From positions 1-64,000 of IMG/VR virus record IMGVR_UViG_3300031885_000008: DNA of 64,000 bases; one strand, 5' to 3'. A program made the position numbers and the translations under genes. The stretch comes from a virus. This document shows, in pieces, positions 43,721-56,489 of this stretch (positions are counted from its first letter, which is position 1; the number at the start of each line of letters is the position of its first letter). Under the pieces are notes generated by a model that saw only the letters and a program-made list of their open reading frames with translations, did not search any database and was not told where the DNA came from.

Positions 43721-44653
43721 TCAGACGGCGCGAACTCCAGTTGCCTTCACCACTGCGGGCTCATGGGCGAATCGGAAATCCACCCGAGCCGTCACCACGA
43801 TGATGTACACGCCGGCCGAGGCGTCCTTGTCGGTGTCGATTCGGATATTCCTCCAAATGCCGAAAAGCATGTTCGCGGGATCCGTGAAAAGCACCACTGT
43901 CTCGTTGGTGCTTCCGCCGAGATTCACCGGGAAAATCGGAACGCCAATCACAGGAATTCCCTGGAACGGACGAGATTCCGAAGCCTGAACTTGCTCATCA
44001 CCCAGAGGCGTCGCGCGATCGCCGAGGCTCTCCTGGTAATCGATATTGGCCTCATCCGCGGTGAAGAAGCGAAGGCTTCTTCGATCACGCCGAAACGCCG
44101 ACGGCATGGTCTTCAACGCGTCTTTCAGCACTGACCGCTGAAGCGTAGCGCCACCGGCCGCGACAGTGTTCGTGAACGCCGACGTGATGAACCCGTTCAG
44201 CGTCTTGAGCAGCTCATCGCTGGACGAGGTGATCCCGTTGAATGCCAACTCCTCCAGCTCCAACGCGATCTTGGCAGCCATCGTCTCCTGTACGGTTTGC
44301 TCGAACCGCTGCCGCTCGATCGAATCCTCCAACGCCTCAAACGAAAGTCTCGTCTCCGCCTTCACGAGTTGGGCGTCCAGCTCCACCTTGCTGGTGGTCG
44401 GAACAGAACGCTGTGCGTAGGGCAGTGCCGTCGCTTCGGTTCCCTTCCTCAGCGTCCGACCCTCATACCGAATCTTCTCCCTCAATTCCTTTGGTGACGT
44501 CATGTCCACACGCGTCATCATGGGAATCACAACTGCCTGATCGATGAGCAGTTGAATGAACCGATCTCGCTGCGCCGACTGAAGAAGGCCGCCGGGCGCG
44601 AAATTCGACAGAAGAAAATCTGCCTTTTGGACTATGAACCTGTTGTCTTCCAT
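43721..44653 (-). CDS. Major capsid protein (HK97-like)
   Basis: ATG 44653 (GAGGAG upstream) gives 310 residues beginning MEDNRFIVQKADFLLSNFAP. The N-terminal arm and spine (RFIQLLIDQAVVIPMMTRVD, KVELDAQLVKAETRLSFEAL), ERQRFEQTVQETMAAKIALE and C-terminal NLGGSTNETVVLFTDPANML then FGIWRNIRIDT match HK97-fold capsid proteins. It follows the scaffold gene by 13 nt. An upstream in-frame extension is not supported. Cleavage of an N-terminal arm is not evident. Confidence 0.9.
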   Translation of the reverse strand: MEDNRFIVQKADFLLSNFAPGGLLQSAQRDRFIQLLIDQAVVIPMMTRVDMTSPKELREKIRYEGRTLRKGTEATALPYAQRSVPTTSKVELDAQLVKAETRLSFEALEDSIERQRFEQTVQETMAAKIALELEELAFNGITSSSDELLKTLNGFITSAFTNTVAAGGATLQRSVLKDALKTMPSAFRRDRRSLRFFTADEANIDYQESLGDRATPLGDEQVQASESRPFQGIPVIGVPIFPVNLGGSTNETVVLFTDPANMLFGIWRNIRIDTDKDASAGVYIIVVTARVDFRFAHEPAVVKATGVRAV

Positions 44654-44666
44654 TTCACGCGCTCCT

Positions 44667-45935
44667 CTACATAATCCATGGCGATTTGAGAACGCCACGG
44701 CGATCCGCATTTGCCTCAGGCTTGCCCTCGGGGCGGCTCGCTGGAATCTGCGGTGTGGATGCAATCTTCTCCACCGTAGACACCAACGCGTCAAGCCGCT
44801 TCATCACCGATGCAAGCACGCCTTCACCCTTGCTGGCCGGATCATCTCCGGTCGGACCCACCCCAACGTTGGGAAGAACCCCGGACTCGACCGCCGGTGG
44901 TATCGGCTGGTCCACCATGGCCCGCTTCTCAGCCGTCGTGATCAGCGCATCGACACGCCTCTTCAGCTCTTCCACAACCTTTGTCAACTGATCCACCAGC
45001 AGGGTTTGAGCAGCCGTCGGCTCTTCTGCGTTTGCCGATTCAGGCAAAAGCGCCTTCGTGACGCCGCACATCTCGACCTGCAAGGCGGCCAATGCCTCGG
45101 GGTCCGGCGCCTCAGCGATTCGCTGAATCACCGAAGCCAGCACTTTCATTTTGTCTGCGAATTCCGTTCCCAGAGCGGAAAGGGAAGCGACCACAGGCGC
45201 ATCCGGAGGACTCGCTTGGGTCTCCTCTGCCTTTTGCTCCAGGGCCACAGGAGTTTCTTCCATGACATTCTCCTCGACCTTGGCAACCTCAGCACCTGAG
45301 GTCGGCGATGGATATTTCTCAACCAACGTATTCAGAGCTATTGCGAGCTGCCGAATTTTCGTGATGCAGTCTGACGCGAGTGAATCTTCCTGCGCCGCCT
45401 GCTTAGACAGCTCCAACGCTTGCTCGCCAATGGCGGCTAGGGTTGTGGCGACGACGCCCTCCGCCTTTGCAACCGGCGAAGGATACCGCGAAATTACACT
45501 CCCCAACAGATCGGCGATTGCCTTGATCTCTACACCGAGGGCGTTGTCCAGCGGAGCGTCCGAGGCTGCCGTTGTCTCTTCCGAATCCTTCACCATGTTG
45601 GCAACGGATACGGTACGCTCCAACACCTCGGTCAAAATGCGCAAGATGCCCTCCTTCACCGTCGAGGGCATCCCCGCCGAGCCACTTCCTTCAGCCGAGC
45701 TTCCCTCCGGAGACGTAGCTGGCTGCCCAACTTCTTCTGCCTTATTGATATTGTCCACGGATCCACCTCGTTGCTTGACCACAAGGAAACGGCGTCGATT
45801 GGCGGCTCGGTCAACGATTGAAACCTCTTCCACAAGGATGTCGTGCAATCGAAACGCGGCTTCGTCCTCGTCGGGACTCCCTCCGAGGAACGCTCTCGCA
45901 ACAGCTAGCACGCTATCCAGTTTTCTGATTTCCAC
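44667..45935 (-). CDS. Scaffold-like protein with XkdF-type EVSIVDRAAN motif
   Basis: The N-terminus (LHDILVEEVSIVDRAANRRR) carries the EVSLVDxxAN motif typical of protease/scaffold proteins. The rest is acidic and helical, with two related units ending SRYPSPVAKAEG and EKYPSPTSGAEV (about residues 90-240), then a coiled coil (LVDQLTKVVEELKRRVDALI). It is acidic and extended, like scaffolds. It lies between the polyprotein and the capsid gene. GTG 45935 start without clear ribosome-binding site. Confidence 0.75.
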   Translation of the reverse strand: MEIRKLDSVLAVARAFLGGSPDEDEAAFRLHDILVEEVSIVDRAANRRRFLVVKQRGGSVDNINKAEEVGQPATSPEGSSAEGSGSAGMPSTVKEGILRILTEVLERTVSVANMVKDSEETTAASDAPLDNALGVEIKAIADLLGSVISRYPSPVAKAEGVVATTLAAIGEQALELSKQAAQEDSLASDCITKIRQLAIALNTLVEKYPSPTSGAEVAKVEENVMEETPVALEQKAEETQASPPDAPVVASLSALGTEFADKMKVLASVIQRIAEAPDPEALAALQVEMCGVTKALLPESANAEEPTAAQTLLVDQLTKVVEELKRRVDALITTAEKRAMVDQPIPPAVESGVLPNVGVGPTGDDPASKGEGVLASVMKRLDALVSTVEKIASTPQIPASRPEGKPEANADRRGVLKSPWIM

Positions 45936-45943
45936 GTTGTTGA

Positions 45944-48900
45944 CTATATCTCGCGATTGTTACAGGACGAAAGCTTTTCTCGCAATGCTGTGCCGCCCAT
46001 TGAAAATCCAGTAAACTCACCCGCCTGAATGGCCGCCCATATTTTGTCGTCTCTAACTCTGGAAGCCAAGAACCATGTTCCAGTCGGAAACGTTTCTTCC
46101 CCGTGCGTCTCTGGTTGCTTGGAGAGGTAGGACTCCAAAACTTGTATGCCCTCGATCGGCTCACCTTGGTGCATAACCCGGAACTTTCCGCCGAAAAATT
46201 CCAAAAACGAATGAGCAGCTTTGCGTACGTCCGCAGCCGTGTACACGTCGCCCTGCGCATCAGTCTCATCTGGAATCAGCACCACGCCAAACACATATCG
46301 CTCTGAGGTGTCCTTGGTTGGCTCCACAGCCTTCACGATACGCACTGCACGGCCATTCTTGCGAACGTTTTTCATGTCCGCCTCTCCAGCCTCCAAGGCA
46401 TCTTTTGAACCAGAGGAGATCTCTCCTGGACGAAGCAACGCCTTCAACTCCGAAATCGTTGTCGGAGGCATATCAACTTTCGCCAGTGCCTGCGCCGGCC
46501 CAAACCACCTAATGCGAATCGGAGGCCCCTCCTCGAAAAATATTTCGGTCGTTGTCGTCGCGATAACGTCTCCGACATTCGCATCCAGTTTACGGTTTCC
46601 CGTCCGACCGACCATCACCCAATGCTTCCCGTTCAGCTCGACAGGCTCAGCCCACTGAGACAGCTCCCCCTCTGGAATTGGACCGATGGCGCCAACAAAA
46701 TTGTAAACGCCAGGCGACCCTTTCACCTCGTGCCGTTCAACAACCATCGCGAGAATTTCCCGGACGACTTTCACCTTCACCCACAAATCCTGCTCCCCAC
46801 CGAGCGAGTAGGTGGAGCCGATCTGTTTGAGCATCGCCCCCTCAGACCCGGGCTTTGCACTCATCACCTTCATCCGCTGAAGGAGTTCCTCCCGAGAAAC
46901 CGCAAGCAACCCGGGAGCCTTCAAAATGTGGGGAGCCGAATCCTTATGTTCGAGCAACCAGGCGCCCAAACTCGCTTCGCGTTTTGCCAGCGGTTGCGCA
47001 AGTAGGTTCCCCAACGTGGGGTGATACAGCATGTCAAACACAACAAACCGAAGCTGCTCATCGTCAGCCGGCGCTGTCCCTCGGAACTGCGCCAAATCTG
47101 CACGGGGGAGAAACTCATCGGTGGTACCTGGCACGAGCGCCATAATCTCACCGTCGAGAATGAAGCTCCCCCCGAGGCCTTCCAAATCCTTTGTCAGGCC
47201 AGGCAGGATCTTAGCGAGGTCGCGCTGCGCGTCCTCCGTATAAATCATCACCCCCTCATCCAAAACGTCATCGTCGAGACCGGCCTCCCATCGTTCCGCG
47301 ATTGCTCGAAAGCCGTTGTACTTTGGCTCAACTCGAACGCCATCCGCAAGTAGGGCGTCGGTGAAGGCTTCGCGAGCGGCCGTCTCGGGATCTGTGAATC
47401 GATTGGAGGGACGCGGCGCAGGTTTCATCGGCTGAAACAAAGCTGGAGGCCGAAGTTTCTCGCGGTCTCCCCCCCGGTCGTCAGTCTCAGACCTCGATGC
47501 AATGTCCCACATTTGCATTCCGTCCTCCCGCACCCGAACGGACTTCTCTATCGAGGGCACATTCCTGGACGGCACACTTCCAGGCGAAAAAATCCAAAAG
47601 TCGCTTCCGACTTCTTCCAGGACCAGCGTAAACAAGCCCTTCAGTTTGGACCCCCGAAACCGAAGCTTCTTGAAGGTTGGCTGATCGTCCAACACGTCGA
47701 CCTTTCCCTGGTCGATTATCTTCATTGTCGAAGGAGTCGCCTTTGTATTGTTCAGACGAATTCCGCCAACTTCAAGCCCTGGCGAGGCATCCCCCTCGAA
47801 CGTCAGAAGCTCATCGCTGCCCTCAACCAAAACCGCCAAAATTGATTCCTCACCTGATAAAGGATCAATTTGCAGTTGAAAATCTTGTACACGCCCTCCC
47901 GCTGGAACAGGAAGCATCAGGTGGAAAATTTGCCTACTGGGTGTCCCACGAACAACGGTCTGCCCCTTCCAATATTGCCAGGACAGTACAAAGTCCGAAA
48001 CACGAACCTGCTTATCAAGCTGCTCGACGTCGATGGCGTCGGAACGCACCTTGGTGGAGATTCTCGTGTAATCTCCGTCGACGAAACGAACGTTCTCCTC
48101 AGTGAAAAACTTGGAGGACACCAACGCATCCCGAATTTTTCGGGCCTCAGCTTCCCCGTCAGCCTCCCAAAACCGAAACTCACGTGGCGTGATTGCCATC
48201 AACGACGAGGGCATCGCCGACTGCCCAAGCGGAGGCATCGCGCCAGTCTCCACCGAACGACTGCGAAGGATCGAAGGCAACGCAACCTTGGCAAATCCGG
48301 ACGTCCAGAACATCTCGCCCGTGCCAGTGAGATCTTCAGTAGACCGGCTGACGCCGCCTTCGAGCATGCGGAACGTCAAGGTCCCCTCAAACTCTGGCGT
48401 ACCAAACACAAAATACTCGTGAAAATGGGGATCTTGTTTGCCCCATTCGACTTTGAGCTTCGCCAGCTCGACGTAAACGCCTGCCTCAAATCGCGTCGCT
48501 CCAACCGACCCTGGCTCGAACACAACGTCCCCAATCGTCAGCCACTCGAGAGGCTGCCTCGACTTCGGAACGGCGTAGACACGGCTCGGAAGGATCATCG
48601 CCTTGTTGGCCGCCGACCCCTCCATATCAAATGGAGCCATGACACGATTGGCTTCCTCAATCGTATCCACTTTCCCAGTAATTCCAGGCTTCATCGCCGC
48701 AATCGTCCATCCAACCAGATAGTCGGCGACCTGCATACGGAGGTCGAGATGATAGCCCGACCCCCTAAAATGAGCCTGTAGAACTCCGGACCGCTCCCCA
48801 AGCTTCTTCGGCCAATCTAAAAGCGGGTCGTCTTGCTTCGCTACCATCTCGATCTGGACTTTTCTGGCATGCGGAACCAGCACCAGATCGTACAACGGAA

Positions 48901-49981
48901 CGTGGGTCGTGAACGGACCCCCCTGCGAATCGTCATGAAACTGAACACGGGAAGACAGCCGAGGGGGCAATGCGCGGCCAAGCCGAAACTTGATCACATG
49001 CCTGGTCTCTTCATCCAACGGACCCCGAATGAGCACGTCAATATCATTGTCCGACTTCCGATGGTTGCACAATGACCCCACCAAAAAGACCGCCGGCATT
49101 CGCAGAGCCATCGGTTGGGACCAGTGCGCCAGCACCTCGTCCAAGGTCGCCGGGTCATCGTGATGCTTCCCAAGTCCGCTCGGATGAATCACCGCAAACT
49201 TTGAACCAATAACAGACTTGAGAACTGCAGCCGCCCCATCCAATCCAGGATCGGACGTCAACTCGAGTCCCCTCCGGCGACCTTCCTCCATTACGAAAAT
49301 GTAAGCGTTGACTACGTCTTCCCGTGAAGCGCCGCCTCCACTGTTAGCCGAGTTCCCCGCAAAAAATTCCGTAAACCACAGGATCAAATCTTTCTGGGCA
49401 GTCCTCAAATCCTCATCTGAGAGAGAGCGTAGTCGCTCAGGATCGGGTGCGGCAACAAACTGCATCACGTCAAACGCTACGGCCTTGACCACATCCTGGT
49501 CAAAGTCGACCTCGCCGCCGAAGCGTCGTCCTTCTGGAGCTTGCCGAAGCTTCAACGGAGGATCAAACACAACCACGAGCTGTAGCGGCAAATACCAGAT
49601 GTTCTTCTCGGTTGAAAATTCCTCGGCCGTCAGCGGGTCTATTCCAGCTCGCTGCTCCTTGGACAGTTCAACCATTGAAGCCATGGCTATCGGAGCGTCT
49701 TGAGCGACAACGGCCCATACGAACACGCTCTTCGGGTTGCTCTGGGAAAGCTCGTTCACGAGCGCCTGGGGATCTCCAACTCGTTCGGTGCGCTGGCGAC
49801 GAGAAAGCAACGCTGCGGACTCCCCCTGGCGCAGCCGTCTTACAAGGAATTGGGGATCCGGAACTTTGAGCGCCGGCAGCACGCCACGAGGTGGCTCAAA
49901 TTTGCTCACCCGAAACGCTCCCTGCCCTGAAATAGTTTCCGTGGTCAAACCCGTCACCGCCGCTGGAAAAGAATCTTCCAT
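45944..49981 (-). CDS. Polyprotein: nucleotidyltransferase-like, LigD-PE-like, DNA-ligase-like and XkdF-like protease domains
   Basis: A 1345-residue protein. Residues about 290-390 have a minimal nucleotidyltransferase motif, VGS (301-303) then DNDID (311-315). Residues 400-575 resemble the LigD phosphoesterase domain (YHLDLRMQVADYLVGWTI; EFEGTLTFRML). A second such unit lies at about 660-805 (VLSWQYWKGQTVVRG; KKLRFRGSKLKGLFTLVLEE). ATP-dependent ligase motifs follow: I EPKYNGFRA (K887, Asp of KxDG replaced by Asn), III FILDGEIMA (E945), IIIa FVVFDMLY, IV SEGAMLKQ, V LWVKVKV, with an OB region at 1090-1165. Residues 1226-1335 are XkdF-like: VMHQGE (H1271) and GFSMGG (S1327). It sits between portal and scaffold; prohead protease is likely, ligase role unknown. 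Confidence 0.85.
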   Translation of the reverse strand: MEDSFPAAVTGLTTETISGQGAFRVSKFEPPRGVLPALKVPDPQFLVRRLRQGESAALLSRRQRTERVGDPQALVNELSQSNPKSVFVWAVVAQDAPIAMASMVELSKEQRAGIDPLTAEEFSTEKNIWYLPLQLVVVFDPPLKLRQAPEGRRFGGEVDFDQDVVKAVAFDVMQFVAAPDPERLRSLSDEDLRTAQKDLILWFTEFFAGNSANSGGGASREDVVNAYIFVMEEGRRRGLELTSDPGLDGAAAVLKSVIGSKFAVIHPSGLGKHHDDPATLDEVLAHWSQPMALRMPAVFLVGSLCNHRKSDNDIDVLIRGPLDEETRHVIKFRLGRALPPRLSSRVQFHDDSQGGPFTTHVPLYDLVLVPHARKVQIEMVAKQDDPLLDWPKKLGERSGVLQAHFRGSGYHLDLRMQVADYLVGWTIAAMKPGITGKVDTIEEANRVMAPFDMEGSAANKAMILPSRVYAVPKSRQPLEWLTIGDVVFEPGSVGATRFEAGVYVELAKLKVEWGKQDPHFHEYFVFGTPEFEGTLTFRMLEGGVSRSTEDLTGTGEMFWTSGFAKVALPSILRSRSVETGAMPPLGQSAMPSSLMAITPREFRFWEADGEAEARKIRDALVSSKFFTEENVRFVDGDYTRISTKVRSDAIDVEQLDKQVRVSDFVLSWQYWKGQTVVRGTPSRQIFHLMLPVPAGGRVQDFQLQIDPLSGEESILAVLVEGSDELLTFEGDASPGLEVGGIRLNNTKATPSTMKIIDQGKVDVLDDQPTFKKLRFRGSKLKGLFTLVLEEVGSDFWIFSPGSVPSRNVPSIEKSVRVREDGMQMWDIASRSETDDRGGDREKLRPPALFQPMKPAPRPSNRFTDPETAAREAFTDALLADGVRVEPKYNGFRAIAERWEAGLDDDVLDEGVMIYTEDAQRDLAKILPGLTKDLEGLGGSFILDGEIMALVPGTTDEFLPRADLAQFRGTAPADDEQLRFVVFDMLYHPTLGNLLAQPLAKREASLGAWLLEHKDSAPHILKAPGLLAVSREELLQRMKVMSAKPGSEGAMLKQIGSTYSLGGEQDLWVKVKVVREILAMVVERHEVKGSPGVYNFVGAIGPIPEGELSQWAEPVELNGKHWVMVGRTGNRKLDANVGDVIATTTTEIFFEEGPPIRIRWFGPAQALAKVDMPPTTISELKALLRPGEISSGSKDALEAGEADMKNVRKNGRAVRIVKAVEPTKDTSERYVFGVVLIPDETDAQGDVYTAADVRKAAHSFLEFFGGKFRVMHQGEPIEGIQVLESYLSKQPETHGEETFPTGTWFLASRVRDDKIWAAIQAGEFTGFSMGGTALREKLSSCNNREI

Positions 49982-50360: not shown

Positions 50361-50797
50361 GATTTTTCCCTCCGCGCTCGAGTACCACCTGTGACCTTGA
50401 GCTGCACCTTGTCCGCTGTTCCAAGCGTCAACGCTGTAATACGGAAGGCAGCATCATGCCCTCGAACGGCTGCCAACGCAGTGATGCCTGTGGTCAACGA
50501 GGCAACCGTCGAAAGAATTCTCCATCGCCGCCCAACCGTCGAAATAGCATCGGGCGTCGCGATGAGAATTTCAATAGTTAGCGCCCCTCCAACGTCGGCC
50601 ACCCCCAGCTTTTCCCAGTCAGCTACAAGCTGGACGTCGTCCCACTCTCGAGCGTCCAAGGTAACTGCCTCGGAGATAACTCCCGCAGAAATCTCCCCGG
50701 CGCTCAAATTATCAGGCGTCCAATCTGCAGCATCCGAAGCAGCTCGATTTGGCCGAACGACTACCGCAGCGTCTTGGCTGTAAAGCCTCTTTTTCAC
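50357..50797 (-). CDS. Hypothetical virion protein
   Basis: A 146-residue beta-rich protein: EISAGVISEAVTLDAREWDD, LVADWEKLGVADVGGALTI, RRWRILSTVASLTTGITAL. GTG 50797 overlaps the portal stop (GTGA), with GGAGGA upstream. Likely a minor capsid or portal-associated component. Confidence 0.55.
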   Translation of the reverse strand: MKKRLYSQDAAVVVRPNRAASDAADWTPDNLSAGEISAGVISEAVTLDAREWDDVQLVADWEKLGVADVGGALTIEILIATPDAISTVGRRWRILSTVASLTTGITALAAVRGHDAAFRITALTLGTADKVQLKVTGGTRARREKS

Positions 50798-52584
50798 TGA
50801 GCATCCTCCTCATTCGATTTTCGAGAGAGCCTCCCGACAGCCTCGTCAAGATCCTGAAGCGTCGTATCCGCCACCTGCGGCAATGCTGGACCAGCAATTC
50901 CGACAAACGGTTGGGCCGGCTGTCGTTGCACCCCCGGCAGCGACGAATTCGTGTCACCCATGGTCAGCTCCACCATGGTCAACTGCAGCGGTTGCTTTGC
51001 CCAATCCTGTTCGATGGGCGCAAACGCGCATCCCATAATGTCACTTGCCAACTCCCGACCTTCGTTCGGCGTAATAACACCGACCTTTGACAAACTCGAA
51101 ATAACCTCAGCCCCGGTGCTCTGATCTCGAGATTGGGGTCCGTTCGTCCGAAATAGCCATAACAAAATTCCAAGCTCGGAAAATACAACTCTATTTACCC
51201 ACGAATCGAACTCTGTACGTTCCGGATTGAATACTTGCTCATCGGCAAAGCGTAGGGAACTTTCAGCCGTCCCGCGGTTGAAATCACGAACGTCTCCTCT
51301 CAACAACCTAGGCAGTCGAAAAGAAGATCCAACCTTGTCGGTATTTCTCTCGTCGTATTTTTGAAACAGCGCATCCCCTTGCTGGGCGTCGGTGAGCCGT
51401 TCCATCTTGATCACGGGGTTTTCTCGAGGAGACAACGGATCGTTATCTGTCTCAGCCTCTATCACGAGAATCTTGTGAAAATTCTCTCTGCCACGCAAAT
51501 TGTCTCGAATGTAGGTCTCAATCGTGGCTACGGATTCCGCCGCAAGCCGACCACCAGACACGAGCAAGGCCAGAGGAGGAACGGATTTGTTGTCAAAATA
51601 ATTGTAGTTCACTTCCTCTGAGGCTCGCGACCCCAACACCGACAACAAACTTCCAATCCAACGAGGTTGCCCGTACGGCTCGCCCGTGGCGTATATCTTG
51701 AAGTGCGCAATTTCAGTTGCAGGTTGATCGTGCTGCCCGGCATGCTTCGTAAACGTGGCAATATCCGAATAGACGTAGCCTGTATCCCGCGATACAACCC
51801 TCGGATCTCCGAGTTCCTTGAACCAAACAAGCTTTGCCCCAATGGCTTGAACGTATCGCCTGAAAAAACGAGGTTGTCGGATTGTTTCCCAACTCAGCCC
51901 ATGTCGAACCCGCTCCGTCACAATAATCGGATCGACATCCAAACCTGTACAACGCATGTATGAGGGTGGCACGTGTACAAATCGAGCAAGCCGTCCTTGC
52001 CGATCCCTCAAACATTCCCAGTAACCATTTCCGGTTATCTCAATATCCTGCCGGGTTATTCTCCTAAGCGTAACGAACGAACTCGACGGGCTGACATGCT
52101 CAAAAAATGACACGAGCTTTCCATACTCAAGCCGTGCACGAATTTTGAGACCCTCGATAGCCAGGGCGACCTCCGCATCGGAGGGTCGCAAATGCACAGG
52201 GTCATTTGCGTTTGGCTGAAGGGATGACCCAGGAAGACTGACATGCTCCTCCGCTTCAGAAACACGCTCAAGCCACATAGCGTCGCGAACGCGCTCAAAC
52301 GAAGCGTCAGAGTTCAAATCAATTCGTGGCGCAAACCGATGCCCAAGACCATCAATGTTCGTAACGTACGCCTGCACATTTGGGCCGAGCGCCCCAGAAT
52401 TCTCGTACCACCGAATGAGAACCAACGGATCGTAAACTGGCGCAAGAACCTGGGCTTGACGAAAAAGTCCCCCAAGGATGTCCGCCTGCTCGTCCTGTAT
52501 TGACGCTGGCGCATGGACGTCAGCGCCGGCAATCCGAGCCTTCACCGTCGTGTGCCTCGGAAACTCTCGCGACGTATCAGTCAT
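50794..52584 (-). CDS. Portal protein
   Basis: ATG 52584 overlaps the preceding stop (ATGA), giving 596 residues. Portal features: VYDPLVLIRWYENSGALGPN then QAYVTNIDGLG, PSYMRCTGLDVDPI, EVNYNYFDNKSVPPLALLVS, RENFHKILVIEAETD, and KVGSSFRLPRLLRGDVRDFN then RFADEQVFNPERTEFD. The portal forms the DNA-entry dodecamer at the capsid vertex. It lies downstream of terminase with two tiny genes between. Confidence 0.9.
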   Translation of the reverse strand: MTDTSREFPRHTTVKARIAGADVHAPASIQDEQADILGGLFRQAQVLAPVYDPLVLIRWYENSGALGPNVQAYVTNIDGLGHRFAPRIDLNSDASFERVRDAMWLERVSEAEEHVSLPGSSLQPNANDPVHLRPSDAEVALAIEGLKIRARLEYGKLVSFFEHVSPSSSFVTLRRITRQDIEITGNGYWECLRDRQGRLARFVHVPPSYMRCTGLDVDPIIVTERVRHGLSWETIRQPRFFRRYVQAIGAKLVWFKELGDPRVVSRDTGYVYSDIATFTKHAGQHDQPATEIAHFKIYATGEPYGQPRWIGSLLSVLGSRASEEVNYNYFDNKSVPPLALLVSGGRLAAESVATIETYIRDNLRGRENFHKILVIEAETDNDPLSPRENPVIKMERLTDAQQGDALFQKYDERNTDKVGSSFRLPRLLRGDVRDFNRGTAESSLRFADEQVFNPERTEFDSWVNRVVFSELGILLWLFRTNGPQSRDQSTGAEVISSLSKVGVITPNEGRELASDIMGCAFAPIEQDWAKQPLQLTMVELTMGDTNSSLPGVQRQPAQPFVGIAGPALPQVADTTLQDLDEAVGRLSRKSNEEDAQ

Positions 52585-52814
52585 GTTGGCGACGCTATCA
52601 CGAAGATCTCCGAATCGCACGTGTCGTCCCACAAATTATCTTGGAAGCTGTCATCGATCACCACCTCATCACCACCAAATATTTCCGATCCCACCAGGAA
52701 ACAACAAACGACAGCTACAGCAATAACGAGTGCAAAAATATCTACAGTCCACCTCGAACGCGCCAGGTCCCAAGGTTCAGACGTACGTCGACGTCTATAG
52801 CTCTCCAGCTCCAT
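52581..52814 (-). CDS. Small single-pass membrane protein
   Basis: A 77-residue protein from ATG 52814 (GGAGGAGG upstream): basic N-terminus (ESYRRRRTSEPWDLARSRW), one membrane helix (IFALVIAVAVVCCFLVGSEI), and an acidic C-terminus (VIDDSFQDNLWDDTCDSE). Its stop overlaps the portal ATG. Function unknown; a membrane anchor or signal-anchor protein near packaging genes is notable. Confidence 0.65.
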   Translation of the reverse strand: MELESYRRRRTSEPWDLARSRWTVDIFALVIAVAVVCCFLVGSEIFGGDEVVIDDSFQDNLWDDTCDSEIFVIASPT

Positions 52815-53227: not shown

Positions 53228-55273
53228 CTATTTTCCCAAAATCCTTACGTTGCTCTGTGCCGACTGTCGTTCCTTACGCTTTCGACGATGCGTCTCATAC
53301 ATGCGCGATGCTTCTCTCGCAAACCAACTGTTATGCACGGCAATCCCCTCGACCACAAAAGATTCATCATGCTTGACGTGCAAGTTGCAGACAAGCCCCT
53401 CGTACATCACATGACGTGCGTACTCAATACGCACAACATCACCAGCGCCATCCTCCTGCATGCCGTCTGGAACCCCCGGGGCAAAGACGAAATCACTCTG
53501 CGGTCCTTCTCCAGCACGAAGTGACACGGCTGAACGGAAATCCCATGCATGCGGAACCGCCCTAGTCTCATGCTCAGGGTTGACCCATGGCAACGCCGAC
53601 CATACCGGATGCTCCGCAGTCATGAGAATCTCTACAAACCCGCAGGCGCGCAACCGGACCGCATCCCCTCGATACCATGTGCACGTCGTCCCAGTGACCT
53701 CCTGCCACCTCGACTTGTGGGTGAGGACGAAGTCCCCTCGAACAACTTGCTCAATCGGGACAAGGCCGCGCTTCGTCACCACGAGATACCCAGGTGCGAT
53801 GCATGCCATGAGCAGGTCGCCGGTATGCCTGCCAGGATCGTACCCGACGAGGTCAGAAATCCATTTCCCAACCTGAGGGTCTACAATACGGTTTCCTTGC
53901 TGGCATGGAATGATCCACCGACCAGCCGCAAGCTCCCCCGCAAGACTCTCCACACCATACTCGGGCGAGAGCTTATTCCTCCCTGTCGTGAACGACCGGA
54001 CGCGGAGACCAGGATATTTCTCCCTTGTCCACTGCAAAATAAACTCTTGGGCCGCATTATTCTCTACAACCATTACTGATCGAAACCGGTCGTGCACCGA
54101 AGCAAGCCGGTCGATGATCTCTGGTCCCTGCCACCTACCAGACTGAATTTCAAGAATCTGTCGAGACCCATCCGGCCAGGTCAACAGCGTAAAAATCACT
54201 GACAAATCCGACTTCTCTCGCCCGGTCGACACGTCCACACCAGAAACAACCATCACATTATCGGGCAAACCTCCCATAGCCAGGATCGAATCATTGATCT
54301 GAAATGCCTCTGCAAGCATCGGATACCGAGCCGCCAAGTCGTTCAGGTCCTGCACCAGCGGATGACCCTCCCCACGAGCTAGGCACGTCTCAATCCATTC
54401 CCTCTTGAACCTCGCCGTGCTCTCGTCCCGTGGCTGACAAAGCATCTGCCTCGAGAACTCCACCGGCCCCAGCGTCTTCGTGCGAACATGCTCGATGCGA
54501 GACAACGGCCAGCGTTCCGGCCACGTCGAGCGCCCAACGTCGTCGATCACGGGATACCGTTTTGCCCACCACCCTTGCCGCTCGAGAACATGCGCCATGT
54601 CATCCGGATGCCACGCGTTCGTCAGGAATGCGATCCACGCATCCTCCGACAGTCGCGTAAACGCCGATGAGCGGATCCACTCCTCTATCTTCTCCCGCTG
54701 ATACCTCGTCCGCGTGTTGTTCTCGTTGAGGACGTCGTCAACGATGAGACCGTCCAGCCTGGCCCCCTGCATATTCCCACCCTCGGGCGAGTAGGCCTGC
54801 ACCGATGGATCCTTTATGCCGCTCGGACGCCGCACTTCGATAGCCGAATCGGTCCAAAACAATCCCCGTCGGAGATTGGGGAACACATCGCGAAGGGTCT
54901 TGCTGTTCACGATGTAGCCTTGAATCGTACGGATGACCTTCTTCGCAGCATTCTGCGTGGCACTCAACACAGCAATTCGCTGGCGAGGATCACGCCCAAG
55001 AACCCACAACGGCCGGGCGATAGCCATCAACGAGGTCTTCCCGGCATCTGGATGCGTCCAGAGCACCACGTTCCGATTCTTCTCGAGCACGTCGCTCCAC
55101 TCGAAATGGAACGGCATGAGCGTAATCGGCTCCCCCTTCTCTTCGTCCCGCAATACAAGGGAGCAAAAAGTCGGAAAATCCACACGGGCACACTGAAGAA
55201 GCGAGGAGTACGCTGACGCCGACGCGGCCAGCAGAGGATGCAGGTCTTCCGACAGGTCAAGCCCAACTGACAT
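53228..55273 (-). CDS. Large terminase subunit interrupted by a mini-intein
   Basis: From ATG 55273 (AAGGAAGG upstream): 681 codons, of which 158 are intein, leaving a 523-residue terminase. ATPase motifs: Walker-A-like THPDAGKTS and Walker B LDGLIVDDV. RNase-H-like nuclease: SGVDVSTGREKSD, VVENNAAQEF, and HTGDLLMA, where the intein is inserted. After splicing the junction reads GDLLMASWFAREASRM, the normal family sequence. Terminase cuts and pumps phage DNA into the prohead. Confidence 0.95.
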   Translation of the reverse strand: MSVGLDLSEDLHPLLAASASAYSSLLQCARVDFPTFCSLVLRDEEKGEPITLMPFHFEWSDVLEKNRNVVLWTHPDAGKTSLMAIARPLWVLGRDPRQRIAVLSATQNAAKKVIRTIQGYIVNSKTLRDVFPNLRRGLFWTDSAIEVRRPSGIKDPSVQAYSPEGGNMQGARLDGLIVDDVLNENNTRTRYQREKIEEWIRSSAFTRLSEDAWIAFLTNAWHPDDMAHVLERQGWWAKRYPVIDDVGRSTWPERWPLSRIEHVRTKTLGPVEFSRQMLCQPRDESTARFKREWIETCLARGEGHPLVQDLNDLAARYPMLAEAFQINDSILAMGGLPDNVMVVSGVDVSTGREKSDLSVIFTLLTWPDGSRQILEIQSGRWQGPEIIDRLASVHDRFRSVMVVENNAAQEFILQWTREKYPGLRVRSFTTGRNKLSPEYGVESLAGELAAGRWIIPCQQGNRIVDPQVGKWISDLVGYDPGRHTGDLLMACIAPGYLVVTKRGLVPIEQVVRGDFVLTHKSRWQEVTGTTCTWYRGDAVRLRACGFVEILMTAEHPVWSALPWVNPEHETRAVPHAWDFRSAVSLRAGEGPQSDFVFAPGVPDGMQEDGAGDVVRIEYARHVMYEGLVCNLHVKHDESFVVEGIAVHNSWFAREASRMYETHRRKRKERQSAQSNVRILGK
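53330..53803 (-). other. Mini-intein in terminase (158 residues, no endonuclease domain)
   Basis: It begins with Cys (CIAPGYLVVTKRGLVPIEQV) and block A ends in RGDFVL. Block B has TAEHPVW with the conserved Thr and His. Block F is YEGLVCNLHVKHDESFVVEG. Block G ends VHN, followed by Ser of the extein. All splicing residues (Cys1, TxxH, His-Asn, +1 Ser) are present, so splicing is expected. About 70 residues separate blocks B and F, with no LAGLIDADG or HNH motif. It lies at the metal-binding GDxLMA motif. Confidence 0.9.
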
Positions 55274-55299
55274 GCGTCTACCTTCCTTCGGGCAGAGGG

Positions 55300-55319
55300 C
55301 TGTTGCCTTCAGGCGACAG
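55300..55319 (+). repeat. Left-end hairpin of element 3
   Basis: CTGTTGCCT pairs with AGGCGACAG (one G-T) around TC. The sequence AGGCGACAGATGAATG matches the equivalent of element 1 at one-base difference. Confidence 0.7.
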
Positions 55320-55382
55320 ATGAATGCCCGCTCCAACAAACACAATTTTTTGCCAAGCAGCTATCTTTATGCTAGCTTTCTC

Positions 55383-56489
55383 ATGGTGCGTAAGACCTTC
55401 AAGTACCGACTATATCCGACCAAGGCACAAGCCAGCAAATTCGGCGCGATCCTTGAAGAATGTCGCTGGCTGTACAACAAAATGCTGGAGGAGCACAAGT
55501 ACACCTGGGAAGTCGAGTAGAAGGTGATTGGCCTGTACGACCAGCATGCTCGACTGCCTGCGCTCAAGTCGGCCAGGCCGTCTTTGGAAACAGCACACAG
55601 CCAGGTTCTCCAGAACGTCTGCCTCCGGCTTGACCTCGCATTCAAGGCTTTCTTCCGGCGGGTCAAAGCGGGTGAAGCACCCGGCCACCCGCGCTTCAAG
55701 AGCTTCGGCCGGTACGACAGCTTCACGTTCCCGCAAGCCCCGTCCGGATGCCAACTTCGTGGCGAAAAGCTGGTCGTGTCCAAGGTCGGTCCAGTCAAGA
55801 TAGTCCTGCACCGTCCGGTCGAAGGCGTCGTCAAGACAGCGACGATCCGGCGCACAGCGACGGGCAAGTGGTTCGCGTTCTTCTCTTGCGAGCTTGAGCC
55901 AAAGCCCTTGCCAACCAGCACCGAGCGCGCAGGAATCGACGTCGGCCTCATGACGTTCGCGACCCTGTCGAACGGCGAGAAGATCGAAAACCCTCGGTTC
56001 TTTCGACGGGAAGAGAAGGCGCTCGCGCAAGCTCAGCGCAAGCTCTCGGCAACGCCTAAAGGCACGCCCAAGCGGGTCAAACTTCGCAAGGCTGTTGCCC
56101 GTGTTCACGAGCGCAGCACGAACCGGCGGCACGACTTCATCCATCAGCAGAGCCGCAGGCTCGTCAACAGGTTCGGCCTGATCGCAGTCGAAGACCTGAA
56201 TGTCAACCGCATGGGAAGAGAGCGAAAGTTCTCCAAGAGCATTCACGACGCGGCGTGGTCGATGTTCTTCGCGTGCCTGTCCTTCAAAGCGGAAGAAGCT
56301 GGTCGGACGATGGTCGCGGTGAATCCGGCGTACACCTCGCAGGACTGTTCGCGGTGCGGACAGCGACAGCTCATGCCCTTGGCAGAGCGTGTCTACCGCT
56401 GTCCTTCCTGCGGGCTCGAACTCGATCGGGATCATAACGCGTCGCTCAACATTCTAGCCGTGGGGCTGCACGGCCTGGGCTTGCCCTAG
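55383..56489 (+). pseudogene. tnpB: TnpB with an in-frame amber codon
   Basis: The frame begins ATG 55383 (MVRKTFKYRLYPTKAQ) and runs to TAG 55518-55520 after TWEVE; the next codons (KVIGLYDQHARLPALKSA) continue the TnpB sequence in the same frame. Downstream all key parts remain: AGIDVGLMTFATL, AVEDLNVNRMG, LDRDHNASLNI, and CSRCG/CPSCG. A GTG at 55524 could start a shorter protein lacking the first 46 residues. Other genes here stop with TAG, so reassignment is unlikely. Suppression by a host tRNA, or a decayed gene, are the two readings. Confidence 0.8.

Follow-up and report, generated by a model that had tools for sequence, protein, structure and literature searches.

The window analysed here comprises 64 kb (positions 1–64,000) out of the 67.4-kb IMG/VR virus record IMGVR_UViG_3300031885_000008. 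On its minus strand, one open reading frame (ORF) at 45944–49981 encodes a polyprotein of 1345 residues, in which a nucleotidyltransferase (NTase)-like domain, two LigD-type phosphoesterase (PE) units and an ATP-dependent DNA ligase are followed by an XkdF-type head-maturation protease. The ORF is intact, with zero internal stops across its 1345 codons, and plus-strand translation over the same interval is blocked by stops. A first-pass annotation, made from the sequence alone, had already placed a 1345-residue frame here, leaving its strand unstated. The polyprotein comprises the following features.

45944–49981, minus strand: whole polyprotein ORF (NTase / PE1 / PE2 / ATP ligase / XkdF), 1345 residues, ATG start
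49442–49981, minus strand: N-terminal region, residues 1–180; residues 44–180 are matched solely in the two closest relatives, L002 and L004 (L numbers denote individual loci)
49265–49426, minus strand: HEL motif, helical, about 50 residues (186–239)
48830–49153, minus strand: probable Pol-beta-type NTase-like domain, residues 277–384, motif LVGS...DNDIDVL
48347–48793, minus strand: PE1, LigD-3'-phosphoesterase-like, residues ~397–545, triad H404, H411, D413
47573–48001, minus strand: PE2, LigD-PE fold, residues ~661–803, Z 16.0 to 3p43, triad lost
46490–47413, minus strand: ATP-dependent DNA ligase, adenylylation and OB domains, residues 857–1164, motif I K887-Y-N-G
45944–46360, minus strand: XkdF / Peptidase_S78_2 head-maturation protease, residues 1208–1345, H1271 and S1327

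Domains of the polyprotein

A Pfam scan of the window protein (up to E 1) found just two families, XkdF and DNA_ligase_A_M. The remaining domains were delimited by alignment with relatives, giving boundaries of 277–384 for the NTase-like domain, 376–800 for the PE region (425 residues), 857–1164 for the ligase and 1208–1339 for XkdF. At the C-terminus, Peptidase_S78_2 (XkdF in Pfam) matches residues 1222–1334 with an E value of 3e-25 (89 bits vs a cut-off of 24), and the catalytic H1271 and S1327 are conserved among the aligned fused relatives. The XkdF-like protease that the first-pass annotation had described, with the same two residues, is thus well founded.

DNA_ligase_A_M matches residues 879–1071 (E 1.6e-15, 57.8 bits vs a cut-off of 26.2). 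Ligase motifs I (K887-Y-N-G), III (ILDGE), IIIa (FVVFDMLY), IV (SEGAMLK) and V (WVKVK) can be read, and the family ligase profile matches DNA ligases in the PDB at E 3.5e-29. The structure model of residues 850–1345, with a predicted local distance difference test (pLDDT) score of 81.5, superimposes on archaeal, human and T4 DNA ligases with Z of about 21–22, and the match spans both the adenylylation and OB domains (model residues 1–336). Ligases occupy the whole list of structural matches, so that the lack of a listed match for the XkdF part of the model carries no information. The nucleophilic Lys of motif I (K887) is invariant in the family ligases (21/21). In place of the canonical KxDG, the window ligase has KYNG; KxNG recurs in L016, L020, L021 and L024, and KxDG is found in most relatives. 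Since KxNG recurs in both L016 and the L020/L021/L024 group, and the Lys is kept throughout, we take it as a variant rather than a sign of decay. These results bear out the earlier proposal of an ATP-ligase domain with its motifs and OB domain, in which the Lys nucleophile is kept and the Asp of KxDG is replaced by Asn. A decaying or pseudogenised ligase was also considered, and was ruled out by a dN/dS (ratio of nonsynonymous to synonymous substitution rates) of 0.03–0.07 together with the invariant Lys.

Between the NTase-like and ligase domains lie the two PE units. The family PE profile matches the solved archaeal LigD-type phosphoesterases 3p43 (E 8e-7) and 3p4h (E 3e-5). The PE structure model has a pLDDT of 75.6, and all seven of its Foldseek matches at E ≤ 0.001 are LigD-type PE structures. 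They align to PE2 (residues 661–803), with 3p43 giving Z 16.0 over 120 residues at a root-mean-square deviation of 2.1. In PE1, an H...HxDxR motif lines up with the start of the Korarchaeum PE, and its His-His-Asp triad is invariant across 34 aligned sequences. For comparison, the Mn-binding triad of the P. aeruginosa LigD PE consists of His42, His48 and Asp50 (PMC8656161). As the triad is invariant in PE1 and gone from PE2, the simplest view is that the protein possesses one active PE, likely PE1, and one structural copy, PE2. PE1 alone gives a weak PDB profile match (E 0.05), the structural matches all falling on PE2, and LigD_N (Pfam) has no match in the window protein, with sub-threshold matches in L068, L073 and L069. 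Thus, of the two LigD phosphoesterase-like units claimed at first pass, PE2 is confirmed in its fold but has lost the catalytic triad, and PE1 keeps the triad but is weakly matched on its own. The fold prediction that had been suggested as a check for residues 400–1170 found both the ligase and the PE2 folds.

In the NTase-like domain, the motif GS...DxD lies at about residues 302–315, and its G, D and D are invariant in 27/27 aligned sequences. NTP_transf_2 (Pfam) weakly matches five of these 27 family members (best E 0.0035), and the family NTase profile found no match when searched against PDB sequences. The motif reported at first pass therefore holds, profile support for it is weak, and the invariant G...DxD together with the Pfam matches makes an NTase assignment probable.

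The HEL motif, with the pattern LxxaHxxLH...GxSxEDVxNLHAxVVdElxRRg, is common to nearly all family polyproteins. It is also found in separate upstream genes and occurs twice within one 137-residue protein of L012; a search for it among named phages gave zero matches. HEL is a candidate for a shared targeting, head-binding or linker module. The listed occurrences are:

window 49265–49426, minus strand
L012:3982–4392
L044:1509–2555
L021:1977–4397

Sequence comparison with L004 (93% protein identity) revealed that 432 of the 561 nucleotide differences fall at third codon positions. The dN/dS of the whole ORF is 0.057 against L004 (range 0.057–0.072), and that of the individual domains is 0.006 for the NTase, 0.019 for PE1, 0.050 for PE2, 0.034 for the ligase and 0.12 for XkdF. 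The ranges are 0.006–0.022 for the NTase, 0.02–0.03 for PE1 and 0.03–0.07 for the ligase, with an overall span of 0.006–0.13. Every domain is under purifying selection. A frame artefact, which the first-pass annotation had itself named as a possible objection, or a chance ORF is ruled out by the codon-position pattern, the dN/dS and the intact homologues.

Genomic setting and family of the polyprotein

The polyprotein gene sits in a head-building cluster, with the portal gene on one side and the scaffold and capsid genes on the other.

53228–55345, minus strand: terminase large subunit with a Hint/intein-like insert, further upstream, beyond the portal
50794–52632, minus strand: portal, PBSX/phrog_12 type, upstream of the polyprotein gene
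44667–45935, minus strand: putative scaffold, directly downstream, with a GTG start 8 nt past the polyprotein stop; weak phrog_3017 match, the scaffold role being inferred
43721–44794, minus strand: major capsid protein (MCP), Phage_capsid, phrog_1623

In the terminase, Hint_2 (Pfam) matches residues 515–551, near the C-terminus. An IS605 TnpB-like ORF, recognised by eye, adjoins the terminase gene on the opposite strand at 55524–56489 (plus strand).

Relatives were sought by four viral-contig scans, one genome scan and a phage-record search; loci were counted by the PE module, window included, and clustered at 80% identity into lineages. The total came to 59 loci in 35 lineages, nearly all from uncultivated viruses. 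The sole match from the genome collection, a methylase-PE protein beside an MCP-like gene (L033:1242–3896), comes from a groundwater Planctomycetota metagenome-assembled genome, a bin that provides a possible host lead. The longest family protein has 2241 residues (L068:850–7572); it and the 1885-residue protein of L073 (2881–8535) carry LAGLIDADG/intein-like insertions within the PE domain.

Domain order is shuffled among lineages. With NT and LIG denoting the NTase and ligase, the most frequent order is NT-LIG-PE(-XkdF), and NT-PE-LIG-XkdF is found in the clade of the window, in L016 and in L069, whose group keeps just the C-terminal part of the ligase. Where contigs extend far enough, the usual gene order is terminase-portal-polyprotein-(scaffold)-MCP, and the NTase/ligase/phosphoesterase block sits immediately upstream of the head-maturation protease. 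In 17 lineages the polyprotein ends in a fused XkdF, in five XkdF is encoded by the next gene, and in 12 of the 35 no XkdF was found beside the module. Among the XkdF-less loci, the next gene belongs to another maturation-protease family clearly in L012, L013, L045 and L063 and weakly in L024 and L031; the downstream ORF gave no match when tested in L017, L020, L051 and L066. In L013, a PE unit appears, by eye, to be joined to a MuF-like C-terminus. On the PE tree the fused state requires at least 3–4 changes vs a shuffled mean of 12, and the module and protease were therefore joined or separated several times. Wherever a record has XkdF, the fused or adjacent copy is the sole one, no second XkdF being present in the records tested. 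ATP ligase (PF01068) is likewise always the module's own, and is absent from four of 25 records, which have reduced or ligase-less modules. Ku (PF02735) was detected in none of the 25 records, several of which are fragments; with this scope, Ku-dependent non-homologous end joining was rejected as a reading.

The first-pass annotation had held that domains lying in separate genes in close relatives would speak against a genuine polyprotein. Separate genes do occur in distant relatives (L066/L067, L053 and L023), with L066/L067 encoding NTase, ligase and PE by three genes in a row, but the domains are fused in the close full-gene relatives L002 and L004, as well as in L016 and L069. In the L053/L056 groups (L053, L056, L058, L059, L060 and L074; two lineages), the ligase is split over two adjacent genes at a similar point, profile positions 150–170, between motifs IIIa and IV; these may be either split ligases or products of programmed frameshifting.

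Further modules in the family comprise a D12-type adenine (Dam) methylase, a 2H phosphoesterase, a PNK 3'-phosphatase (PNK3P), a metallo-beta-lactamase (MBL), ASCH and a queuine/TGT-like domain, all of which either target nucleic acids or nucleotides or have a plausible connection with them. The cultured Arthrobacter phage Wheelbite encodes a 2H phosphoesterase fused to XkdF (gp18, 373 residues); therefore, enzyme-XkdF fusions are not confined to uncultivated viruses. Such 2H phosphoesterase-XkdF fusions are annotated as 'RNA ligase' in Arthrobacter phages, and 'DNA methyltransferase' on the 138-residue XkdF gene of PAK_P3 looks like a carried-over label. The XkdF-type genes with these labels are:

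L006:3581–4699
L007:3464–4600
L008:2919–3335

Proposed role and alternatives

We propose that the polyprotein is a polyvalent virion protein that carries a DNA end-healing-and-sealing kit into the head together with the protease and is probably delivered with the genome, a reading to which we assign a probability of about 0.5. We infer its packaging, cleavage, injection or delivery and repair role; packaging and release of a DNA-acting enzyme, as suggested at first pass, is the best available explanation of the protease fusion, and it has the support of the comparative context. Maturation proteases act enclosed inside the prohead; thus, a protein attached to one would be taken in and then released. 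In a putative model, the enzymes would enter the growing head because they are fused to XkdF or translated next to the protease, which would there cut itself and its cargo loose. Afterwards, the freed enzymes would exit with the genome, or work on it inside the head. PE1 would heal 3' ends, the NTase might add or fill in nucleotides, and the ligase would seal nicks or joined ends. The likeliest benefit would be that the incoming genome is repaired or circularised, or that nuclease damage is mended before phage gene expression, without host Ku or LigD.

Several observations weigh against this proposal. Among the enzymatic domains of the polyprotein, XkdF is under the weakest constraint (dN/dS 0.12), and the many lineages without the fusion indicate that it is not required. 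The KxNG in place of KxDG could alter the activity of the ligase. Because Ku was not detected in the 25 records, double-strand end joining is uncertain, and the safer assignment is sealing of nicks or joining of cohesive ends within one molecule. Moreover, a cargo of 1200 residues at the copy number of the protease must fit in the head.

The protein might instead act at the assembly stage, mending nicks or ends in DNA as it is packaged, at the portal or prohead, as a quality control, before it is cleaved, lost or left behind. We consider this unlikely: the gene does lie between the portal and the protease/scaffold, and no other ATP ligase was found in the records checked, but the Dam methyltransferase, 2H phosphoesterase and TGT modules are a better fit for protection or counter-defence than for repair during packaging, and the conceptual relatives described so far are injected proteins (PMC5512222).

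That no other ATP ligase was found in these records would also suit an ordinary replicative or repair ligase cassette in a late operon, which became fused to the protease by proximity and is freed by XkdF to work within the infected cell, playing no part in the virion. The split-gene versions (L066/L067, L023 and the L053 type) and the 12 of 35 lineages with no XkdF found beside the module point the same way. However, the unfused versions too adjoin a maturation protease, whichever its family, a gene in the head cluster is probably expressed late for replication, and the fused state changed at least 3–4 times on the PE tree, so that we find this account doubtful as well.

Least probable of all, to our mind, is an anti-host or counter-defence effector, which might for example modify tRNA, the ends of RNA or signalling nucleotides. 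In its favour, a role as conflict effectors has been proposed for the Pol-beta NTases and 2H phosphoesterases of polyvalent proteins (PMC5512222), KxNG replaces KxDG, and the RNA_ligase Pfam family also touches L024. Yet the ligase core is best matched by DNA ligases in both profile and fold, OB domain included, the PE belongs to the LigD DNA-repair family, and most lineages have ligase and PE together, the combination known from LigD.

Our proposal of a virion-delivered kit has a broader form, which we advance tentatively and at somewhat less than even odds: widespread uncultivated phages and archaeal viruses may carry in their virions a healing and sealing machine resembling that of non-homologous end joining, packaged and released by means of the head-maturation protease, for Ku-free repair or circularisation of the genome at entry, prior to gene expression. 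If the enzymes are packaged, ready-made DNA end repair would be delivered on entry, as a defence layer against restriction or CRISPR damage or as a route to genome circularisation. To our knowledge, virion-delivered end repair of such a kind has not been described. If true, the maturation protease at the C-terminus would serve as a general means of loading cargo; ligases, methylases, 2H phosphoesterases and TGT-like enzymes are all found at this one position. The family would offer natural examples of capsid-loading fusions, with concrete predictions in the form of virion peptides, cleavage sites and nick sealing.

Comparison with known systems

The protease of the window belongs to the same family, and occupies the same genome position, as the known XkdF / Peptidase_S78_2 proteases. 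These are mostly small (138 residues in PAK_P3) or shortly extended (373 residues in Wheelbite gp18), whereas about 1200 residues precede the protease here. As in bacterial and archaeal LigD, an ATP ligase and a PE share one chain, and lineages differ in how the domains are ordered (PMC8656161). Unlike LigD, the polyprotein has a Pol-beta-like NTase, and the Pfam scan to E 1 found no POL (AEP) family; in addition, the PE occurs twice, one of the copies being degenerate, the gene is located in a head cluster and joined to a protease, and no Ku was detected in the 25 records.

Phage use of LigD-type end joining has a precedent in the mycobacteriophages Omega and Corndog, which, as summarised in PMC7719229 citing Pitcher 2006, supply Ku and use the host LigD in infection, there for genome circularisation. 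By that account, a phage genome entering the cell can make use of LigD-type end joining. Omega and Corndog contribute Ku and rely on the LigD of the host, whereas the viruses described here encode their own ligase and PE, with no Ku detected.

Among 50,697 named phage records, the ANMV-1 virus alone has a ligase-PE module. Its protein AJP62006.1 (KP703175, 'ATP-dependent DNA ligase') likewise presents NTase-ligase-PE-PE directly after a portal-like gene, with 27.6% identity overall. It differs in its NT-LIG-PE order and in having no XkdF fusion, the prohead protease being annotated elsewhere. The main text of the ANMV-1 paper makes no mention of a ligase, and a literature search for this ligase found nothing.

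A conceptual parallel already described is provided by the polyvalent proteins (Iyer et al. 2017, PMC5512222), which are multidomain and injected; some of them have an assemblin-like peptidase at the C-terminus, for which a role in protein processing as the virion assembles has been proposed. The first-pass statement that no polyprotein of this kind had been described is therefore too strong. Both groups are large proteins of terminase-portal phages that combine disparate nucleic-acid enzymes, including Pol-beta NTases, Dam methyltransferases and 2H phosphoesterases, and the present family indeed has at least two disparate enzymatic domains in one polypeptide of such a phage. The assemblin-like peptidases of polyvalent proteins, where present, always lie at the C-terminus; in the present family, 17 lineages end in XkdF. 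The core cargo differs, consisting here of an NTase, a LigD-type PE and an ATP ligase; the main text of PMC5512222 has no mention of 'DNA ligase', 'LigD' or 'XkdF', and for that reason we regard the family as a variant of the polyvalent kind. It is best filed as a polyvalent-protein variant with a coherent cargo for 3'-end healing, possible nucleotide addition and sealing.

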